A stretch of 27,367 nt of DNA, taken from a virus. The position numbers were made by a program, and so were the translations under genes. This document shows positions 15,532 through 27,367 of the stretch, piece by piece. The first letter of the stretch is position 1; the number at the start of each line of letters is the position of its first letter. The notes beneath the pieces are model-generated. The model did not search any database and was not told the origin of the DNA. It saw nothing but the letters and a program-made list of their open reading frames with translations. The stretch covers positions 1 through 27,367 of IMG/VR virus record IMGVR_UViG_3300049483_000150; one strand, 5' to 3'.

Positions 15532-16044
15532 TCAATCTCCAAACTCACGGTATGGAATTATATCCGGCCTGTTTTTTTTAGGGTTCAGCCTTATCCCAAT
15601 TTCCGGCATTTTAGGCTGTGTCTCATGGGCTTTGCAAACACGGTGCTTGTTTTCAACCCGGTCGCGGTCGGTCTTGGGCATACCAACCTGATCGCAAAAA
15701 TAGACGTAAGCGGGATAATCCTTGGTGCTTAGAATTACAAACGCCTGCTGCATTAGACTTACCGGGAAACGCGGATCATCGTCTTTATTGTACTTGATGC
15801 CTACCCCTGCATGGCCGGCGTCGCGCCTCCATAGCTCGTAGATCTCCTTTACGGCCTTGGTCCAGTTACGGGGCCAGCCCTCCCACTGGTCAACGGCCAG
15901 CTTCACCATAGGCTTCCAGGCGTGCAATGGAACGTGTCCAAGGTATTGATATCCAAAGTCAACTTTGAGTTGTACCTTGGCCCATTCCTTATCGAAATTG
16001 CGAGCCATATCTGCACAGAAGTCTTTATATTCCTTTGCAATCAT
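15532..16044 (-). CDS. Unknown protein next to the replication initiator
   Basis: This encodes 170 residues. The start is ATG 16044 with AGGGAG upstream and a 4-base overlap with the O-like gene. The protein is mixed helical with aromatic motifs (VDFGYQYLGHVPLHAWKPMVKLAVDQWEGWPRNWTKAVKEIYELW). I know of no named family, although similar small proteins occur downstream of phage replication initiators. The O-then-P arrangement of lambdoid phages suggests it could recruit the host helicase, but no helicase-loader motif or ATPase is visible, so this is only a hypothesis. It has two cysteines and no zinc pattern. Confidence 0.7.
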   Translation of the reverse strand: MIAKEYKDFCADMARNFDKEWAKVQLKVDFGYQYLGHVPLHAWKPMVKLAVDQWEGWPRNWTKAVKEIYELWRRDAGHAGVGIKYNKDDDPRFPVSLMQQAFVILSTKDYPAYVYFCDQVGMPKTDRDRVENKHRVCKAHETQPKMPEIGIRLNPKKNRPDIIPYREFGD

Positions 16045-16742
16045 TGATATTTCTCCCTATCAAATCCGTATTGGCAATCGTCGCGGTTGCCTTTGACATG
16101 AAAAACACCCCTCCATCCCCGAGTGATACTCTGGTTAATGACCGCAACAGGGTCGCTGCCTTCCTCCCGCAGTTTTTCAAGTTCTGTGATTATGTTCTTG
16201 GTTGCCCGATCGGTGAGTGGTGCCTTGATGCGGATTCTAAATTCTTTGAAGTCTGCCCACAGGTCTTTTGGTATCCATTCTGGAATTCCATTCGACCCCG
16301 AAACACCTCTCTCTTCTTTTTTCTTTATATTCTTATATTCTTTATATTCTTGTTTGTTGTTAGTTGCTTGTTGGTTGCTTGTTAGTCGATTGTTAAGTTG
16401 CTTGTTGTCTATTTTTTCTGTTTGTTGGTATATATCCCAATTTATTATTGATATTATACTGAATTTGTTTGTTGATTTCTTTGTTAGATTTCCGAGTTTT
16501 TCGAGTGACGAAACGCAAGTCCTTATCTGCTGCGGGCTGGCGGAGATTGCGCGCGCCGCTTTGTGTATGCCAAATACGAATTGGCCAGGTTCGAGTTGAA
16601 CCTTTTGAAAACCGACCATCTGCTCTTTTGGTTTATGGGTAGCCTTCAAAAGACACCAGCACCAAAAACACCAAAGCACATGGTTTGATAGCCATTCGTT
16701 TTCGAGGCTCTTGCGCCAGAGTTTTACATATCCCCTATCCAT
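16041..16742 (-). CDS. O-like replication initiator
   Basis: This encodes 233 residues. The N-terminal part (residues 1-105: YVKLWRKSLENEWLSNHVLWCFWCWCLLKATHK...LEPGQFVFGIHKAARAISASPQQIRTCVSSLEKLGNLTKKSTNKFSIISIINWDIYQ) is the winged-helix DNA-binding domain of phage replisome organisers. Residues about 108-145 form an Asn/Gln/Lys-rich linker. The C-terminal domain (WADFKEFRIRIKAPLTDRATKNIITELEKLREEGSDPVAVINQSITRGWRGVF) is the common DnaD/DUF4373-type ending of such initiators. The linker DNA carries an iteron array and AT-rich repeats, as in the lambda O gene, suggesting the origin lies inside. The upstream gene's stop overlaps its start. Confidence 0.86.
   Translation of the reverse strand: MDRGYVKLWRKSLENEWLSNHVLWCFWCWCLLKATHKPKEQMVGFQKVQLEPGQFVFGIHKAARAISASPQQIRTCVSSLEKLGNLTKKSTNKFSIISIINWDIYQQTEKIDNKQLNNRLTSNQQATNNKQEYKEYKNIKKKEERGVSGSNGIPEWIPKDLWADFKEFRIRIKAPLTDRATKNIITELEKLREEGSDPVAVINQSITRGWRGVFHVKGNRDDCQYGFDREKYQ
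16315..16351. other. AT-rich repeat stretch, candidate DNA-unwinding element
   Basis: A pyrimidine-on-plus AT-rich tract contains three copies of TTATATTC at 16325-16332, 16333-16340 and 16342-16349. It lies inside the replication initiator gene directly next to the iteron-like array. The arrangement of initiator-binding repeats beside an easily melted AT-rich block is the classical layout of theta-type phage origins such as lambda. Its role is inferred from that layout. Confidence 0.55.
16352..16406. repeat. Iteron-like array, candidate replication origin
   Basis: The unit GTTGCTTGTT occurs exactly at 16363-16372, 16374-16383 and 16397-16406, with 8-of-10 matches at 16352-16361 and 16385-16394. 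Starts are spaced 11, 11, 11 and 12 bases, about one helical turn. Because 11 is not a multiple of 3, the DNA repeat is not explained by a repeated peptide: the encoded linker is irregular. This points to selection at the DNA level for binding by the protein encoded around it. Confidence 0.65.
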
Positions 16743-26937: not shown

Positions 26938-27367
26938 TTGACACCGCCTTTGATTTTCGGGAATTCACGCGAAATGATTCGATGAAACTCGTTCGCCCAC
27001 GCTGCTTGTTCCGGCGTCGGACAGAAAAAATCACGAGCCGCGTGCATCGCATGTGCCATAAGTTGCCGCGCCTGTTTCTCATCTATTTTTACGTTAGATG
27101 ATCCGCACCAGAGAGGCCAGCAAGAAAAATCTATATTGGCCCCGCTCAGGTCGCTGCCGCGCAGGTTGCTGCCGCGCAGGTTGCTGCCGCGCAGGTCGCT
27201 GTAGCTCAGGTCGCTGTCGCGCAGGTTGCTGCCGCTCAGGTTGCTGCCGCTCAGGTCGCTGAAGCTCAGGTCGCTGTCGCGCAGGTTGCTGAAGCTCAGG
27301 TCGCTGCCGCTCAGGTCGCTGTAGCTCAGGTCGCTGTAGCGCAGGTTGCTGCCGCGCAGGTTGCTGC
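26934..27367 (-). CDS. Pentapeptide-repeat protein (C-terminal part)
   Basis: The N-terminus is outside the window; 143 residues are visible. The first 75 visible residues are 15 tandem units of the type (S)(D/N)L(R/S)(X), matching the A/S-D/N-L-x-x pentapeptide consensus that folds as a right-handed quadrilateral beta-helix. After them comes ANIDFSCWPLWCGSS, then NVKIDEKQARQLMAHAMHAA, a C-terminal pattern I recognise from other phage pentapeptide proteins. Some such proteins mimic DNA and block gyrase or similar enzymes; here the target is unknown. The stop overlaps the next gene's start (ATGA). Confidence 0.85.
   Translation of the reverse strand, partial: SNLRGSNLRYSDLSYSDLSGSDLSFSNLRDSDLSFSDLSGSNLSGSNLRDSDLSYSDLRGSNLRGSNLRGSDLSGANIDFSCWPLWCGSSNVKIDEKQARQLMAHAMHAARDFFCPTPEQAAWANEFHRIISREFPKIKGGVK
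27141..27365. repeat. 15-bp tandem repeats inside the pentapeptide gene
   Basis: There are exactly 15 head-to-tail units of 15 bp, for example GCCGCGCAGGTTGCT on the plus strand. Only three codon positions vary: GAC/AAC, AGC/CGC and the last codon (GGC/GGG, TAC, TTC, GAC); all other bases are the same in every unit. This is much stronger nucleotide identity than protein-level selection requires, suggesting recent expansion by slippage or recombination. The array continues out of the window. Confidence 0.85.

Follow-up and report, generated by a model that had tools for sequence, protein, structure and literature searches.

The window (the whole stretch of 27,367 nt analysed here, positions 1–27,367 of the IMG/VR virus record IMGVR_UViG_3300049483_000150) very probably carries a phage replication origin inside its own initiator gene. 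At this origin, 11-bp iterons would be bound by the initiator, an AT-rich stretch would open and the helicase would be brought in. Origins inside initiator genes are a known kind, and the family-wide regularity of the 11-bp spacing is the interesting part. The features of such an embedded origin that were found in the window are an initiator gene, tandem repeats selected as DNA and an adjacent, easily melted AT-rich stretch. We infer that initiator binding, unwinding, helicase loading and the start of replication take place at the array.

The iteron array is located at 16351–16406 on the minus strand, with the consensus ACTAACAAGCA on the coding strand. It comprises five 11-bp units, whose starts are 12, 11, 11 and 11 bp apart. 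Read on the coding (minus) strand, these are unit 1 (AACAAGCAACTT, 16406–16395), unit 2 (AACAATCGACT, 16394–16384), unit 3 (AACAAGCAACC, 16383–16373), unit 4 (AACAAGCAACT, 16372–16362) and unit 5 (AACAACAAACA, 16361–16351). TRF run on the window reported a period of 11 with 4.5 copies at 16357–16406, and the period of the array is out of frame with the codons. The lag-11 tandem score of the initiator gene was 18.0, compared with 6.7 ± 2.2 in 5,000 synonymous-codon shuffles, in which the encoded protein was kept and the score was recomputed. None of the 5,000 shuffles reached 18.0; the repeats therefore exceed what the peptide requires, and the array is selected as DNA beyond that need. An earlier note on this DNA had described five units with an 11–12 bp period, out of frame with the codons and not a by-product of repeated peptides, within the linker of an O-like initiator. 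The unit starts, the TRF period and the shuffles agree with this description, and so do the disordered linker and the PHROG matches described below.

The initiator gene (16041–16742, minus strand) encodes a protein of 233 aa, in which PHROG matches and AlphaFold indicate an N-terminal winged helix, a disordered linker and a helical C-domain. The protein matched PHROG 2514 (DnaD-like helicase loader; 7.7e-30, residues 1–143) and PHROG 678 (O-like initiator; 8.4e-26, residues 65–221), and the gene was annotated on these matches as an O-like/DnaD-like initiator. The AlphaFold model had a mean pLDDT of 77. The N-terminal winged helix is confidently modelled and includes a helix (residues 70–82) and a wing (residues 86–99). 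The linker (residues 110–149) has a pLDDT below 50 and spans the codons that carry the repeats, and the C-domain is helical at residues 159–208. The predicted recognition helix (residues about 70–80) is encoded at 16503–16535 on the minus strand; this assignment is based on the model helix 70–82 and on the covariation of residues 69–77 with the iterons. Foldseek on the model returned generic winged helices, including 4pt7 and 5kbj (titled as an initiator or Rep–DNA complex), with no E-value below 0.001. A sequence search of solved structures with the initiator gave no significant match, and no relatives of it were confirmed in bacterial genomes. Nothing relevant came from searches for RNA families or tRNAs, or for promoter sites nearby.

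AT-rich DNA flanks the array on both sides. The stretch at 16319–16348, which contains copies of TTATATTC (GAATATAA), is the proposed unwinding element. A second stretch at 16429–16458, on the far side of the array, is a possible second unwinding or flank element. By nearest-neighbour stability, the first is the weakest 30 bp in the window and the second ranks next, and both flanks also rank lowest window-wide at 50 bp. Three copies of TTATATTC lie next to the array at 16325–16332, 16333–16340 and 16342–16349, and the whole window contains seven against 0.86 expected. The AT-rich block with three repeats abutting the array had been pointed out before, and it is indeed where the window is least stable; the stretch on the far side is added here. 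Cumulative GC skew, which had been proposed as a check, was uninformative. It was negative almost throughout the window, where almost all genes share one strand, and showed no turn and no origin signal at 16.3 kb. A AAGAATRTAAAGAA-like sequence was also seen directly past the array, at 16319–16352 in the window and in many relatives, and it lies in two different reading frames among the relatives. This candidate conserved element was picked post hoc and was mostly not significant against synonymous shuffles, and we make no claim for it.

The closest relative phage found was L014, whose terminase is 86% identical to that of the window. The two initiators share 39% identity overall; the C-domain (55%) is better conserved than the winged helix (31%). 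The linker of the L014 initiator contains the units AACCCAACTAAG, AACCCAGATAAG, AACCAAGCCCT, AACCCAACTCC and AACCCAACTCA, with starts 12, 12, 11 and 11 bp apart. Both phages have five units with nearly conserved phasing, and the unit sequence and the linker peptide differ between them, as had been predicted for an alignment of relatives. Three further AACCCA units were observed in L014 (4833–4868, plus strand), with an exact 12-bp spacing and one codon phase, in the part of the gene that encodes the wing.

The 11-bp spacing, with varying unit sequences, recurs across many related phages. The lag statistic was computed for 29 initiators picked by protein similarity (the window and 28 relatives), as Z against synonymous shuffles at lags 5 to 25. 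The hosts in this set were staphylococci, listeriae, lactobacilli, vibrios, pseudomonads and others. Loci L054–L087, which were found by a tandem-unit pattern, were excluded because they had been selected on the repeat. Lag 11 had a mean Z of 5.16 and lag 22 one of 3.88; no other lag exceeded 1.06. The top lag was 11 or 22 in 21 of the 29 initiators. As a control, 68 further ORFs from these loci had a mean Z of 0.03 at lag 11, with none above 4, and the test applied to lambda O picked up its established iterons, at lags 20 and 23. Among the relatives, a clear lag-11 array was absent in three Paenibacillus phages, in jenny 12G5 and in two phages that have only the C-domain in common with the others. 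Two podoviruses (terminases 43% and 42% identical) have other initiator N-terminal domains and a related C-domain, and their lag-11 Z values were 6.7 and 3.9. HK022 O (annotated as similar to P22 gp18) and CobraSix showed 11-bp repeats in the lag test. Their linkers (L099 and L100, respectively) each carry a short module with 11-bp spacing in two separate copies and no single continuous array. The record of L095 (Dulem virus 31) is classed as Microviridae, yet it is 35.8 kb long with tailed-phage genes, and its taxonomy line looks wrong.

IMG/VR was scanned for two tandem units with the pattern AACAAGCAACNAACAAGCAAC, which yielded 34 loci. As read from the translations, 32 of the 34, some of them identical copies, fall within the linker of this type of initiator. 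The remaining two are L087, in a structural-looking protein, and L086, outside any open frame. The L086 array consists of 11-bp units (ACCAACAAGCA / ACCAACGAGTA) on the minus strand, at reverse-complement position about 3222, between two genes, and is possibly an orphan origin array or a decoy. The sequence AACAAGCAA was found in codon phases 0, 1 and 2 in 42, 27 and 26 cases, respectively. Covariation between iterons and protein was analysed in 22 array-bearing initiators from the protein-based selection. Mantel tests on these 22 arrays, whose p-values are indicative only for such related sequences, gave r 0.35 (p 0.001) between unit similarity and the recognition-helix stretch (residues 68–81), and r 0.18 (p 0.06) for the rest of the winged helix. 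The stretch 68–81 was picked before the model was viewed, and the model helix spans residues 70–82. In a scan of all 9-residue windows, the maximum r of 0.40 was at residues 69–77; the other high windows were neighbours of these residues and the linker, which is itself encoded by the repeats.

The repeats might be a by-product of the low-complexity Asn/Gln/Lys/Thr linker, with no role as DNA. In favour of this, the model shows the linker as disordered, its composition is of low complexity, and several relatives have a similar linker peptide. However, a lag of 11 is out of the codon frame and its score was never reached by the shuffles, the mean Z at lags 9 and 12, where peptide repeats would be expected, was only about 1 in the 29 initiators, and AACAAGCAA occupies all three codon phases. 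The shuffles and the spread over codon phases lead us to reject this explanation, which is largely refuted and very unlikely to be correct. The initiator could also bind the array mainly for autoregulation or copy control, with the origin elsewhere. In iteron plasmids, iterons can have a role in control besides initiation, and the origin activity of the array is a prediction. The record lacks end repeats and is probably a fragment, so another origin may lie outside the window. We nevertheless consider a mainly regulatory array unlikely: it lies inside the gene and away from the start, the gene gave no sigma-70-like site, and the array adjoins the window's least stable DNA. In phage 80alpha, moreover, the initiator gene, which belongs to another PHROG, could not be complemented in trans, and the authors inferred an embedded origin (PMC5499656).

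A site for another protein, such as a host nucleoid, recombination or partition protein, is the third explanation for the array. Partition sites can consist of short-repeat arrays, and the 11-bp array of L086 is outside any open frame. The location of 32 of the 34 tandem-unit loci in initiator genes, and the fact that the unit sequence tracks the initiator's own recognition helix, make this explanation extremely improbable.

The iterons of phage lambda are 18 bp long, are spaced 20–24 bp apart (about two helical turns) and lie inside gene O. In lambda as in the window, the iterons adjoin an AT-rich stretch midway along the initiator gene, and the gene that follows (P in lambda, the 170-aa orphan in the window) overlaps the initiator gene by 4 nt. 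The units differ, being 11 bp and one turn long in the window. The description of this locus as lambda-like holds for iterons beside AT-rich DNA within an initiator gene, but not for unit length and spacing. Lambda O and the initiator of the window gave no significant BLASTP match, and they matched different parts of PHROGs 2514 and 678.

Gene 18 of the P22-like phage L contains six imprecise 11-bp repeats that were proposed as the likely origin (PMC8022706). The window shares with phage L the direct 11-bp repeats in an O-like initiator gene and the proposed origin, whereas the phage L unit is TGTCCAACGGA and its initiator is more distant. With several direct 11-bp repeats within the initiator gene, the window array is of the same iteron type as that of phage L. 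For ORF13 of the lactococcal phage TP901-1 and ORF16 of Tuc2009, PMC8965321 describes a replisome organizer that binds direct repeats in its own gene, which are the origin. The direct repeats inside the initiator gene are common to these phages and the window, and for the former the binding and the origin are experimentally demonstrated. The record of Staphylococcus phage 80alpha likewise annotates a putative origin in the initiator gene (gp20), but this initiator is of the family PHROG 428 and has no lag-11 signal. The earlier note suggested an origin undescribed for this phage group; as a type it is not new, since lambda, TP901-1/Tuc2009 (PMC8965321), 80alpha (PMC5499656) and phage L (PMC8022706) precede it.

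For the origin proposed in the initiator gene of the window, the winged-helix domain of the initiator would bind the 11-bp iterons, probably with one domain per unit. Because such a unit is one turn of DNA, the bound domains would be aligned along nearly one face of the helix. The complex of initiator and array would then open the AT-rich stretch at 16319–16348, and the C-domain, together with the product of the next gene or a host protein, would bring in the replicative helicase. It is possible, though slightly less likely than not, that this is a widespread origin class in phages of Gram-positive and Gram-negative hosts. In this class, one-turn 11-bp iterons would each be bound by one winged helix, the unit would be readable from the recognition helix (around residues 69–80), and the specificities of origin and initiator would diverge together. 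The generality of the 11-bp spacing and its link to the recognition helix may be new, or may have been described, as our literature search drew mostly on papers open without subscription. The analysis assigns a likely origin to an uncultured phage from its sequence alone, and lag-11 repeats beyond codon need may be a simple marker for origins in many phages with such initiators. If the covariation holds, origin specificity would be predictable from the protein, and the matching of initiator and origin would be explained by both being the same piece of DNA.

The gene downstream of the initiator (15532–16044, minus strand) encodes the 170-aa orphan with the 4-nt overlap, and by its position it is a candidate helicase loader. 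Searches of Pfam, PHROGs, NCBIfam, phages and IMG/VR returned nothing for it, and the genes searched yielded neither a replicative helicase nor a known loader. A loader or helicase gene follows the initiator in L106, L107, L012, L088 and lambda, and in L106 and L107 this gene encodes a DnaC-like loader. A replicative helicase is next to the initiator in several other relatives, and L014 has a primase/helicase. At the end of the window, about 15 copies of a 15-bp tandem repeat (27142–27367) run off the end of the record, and similar repeats are present at one end of L016.
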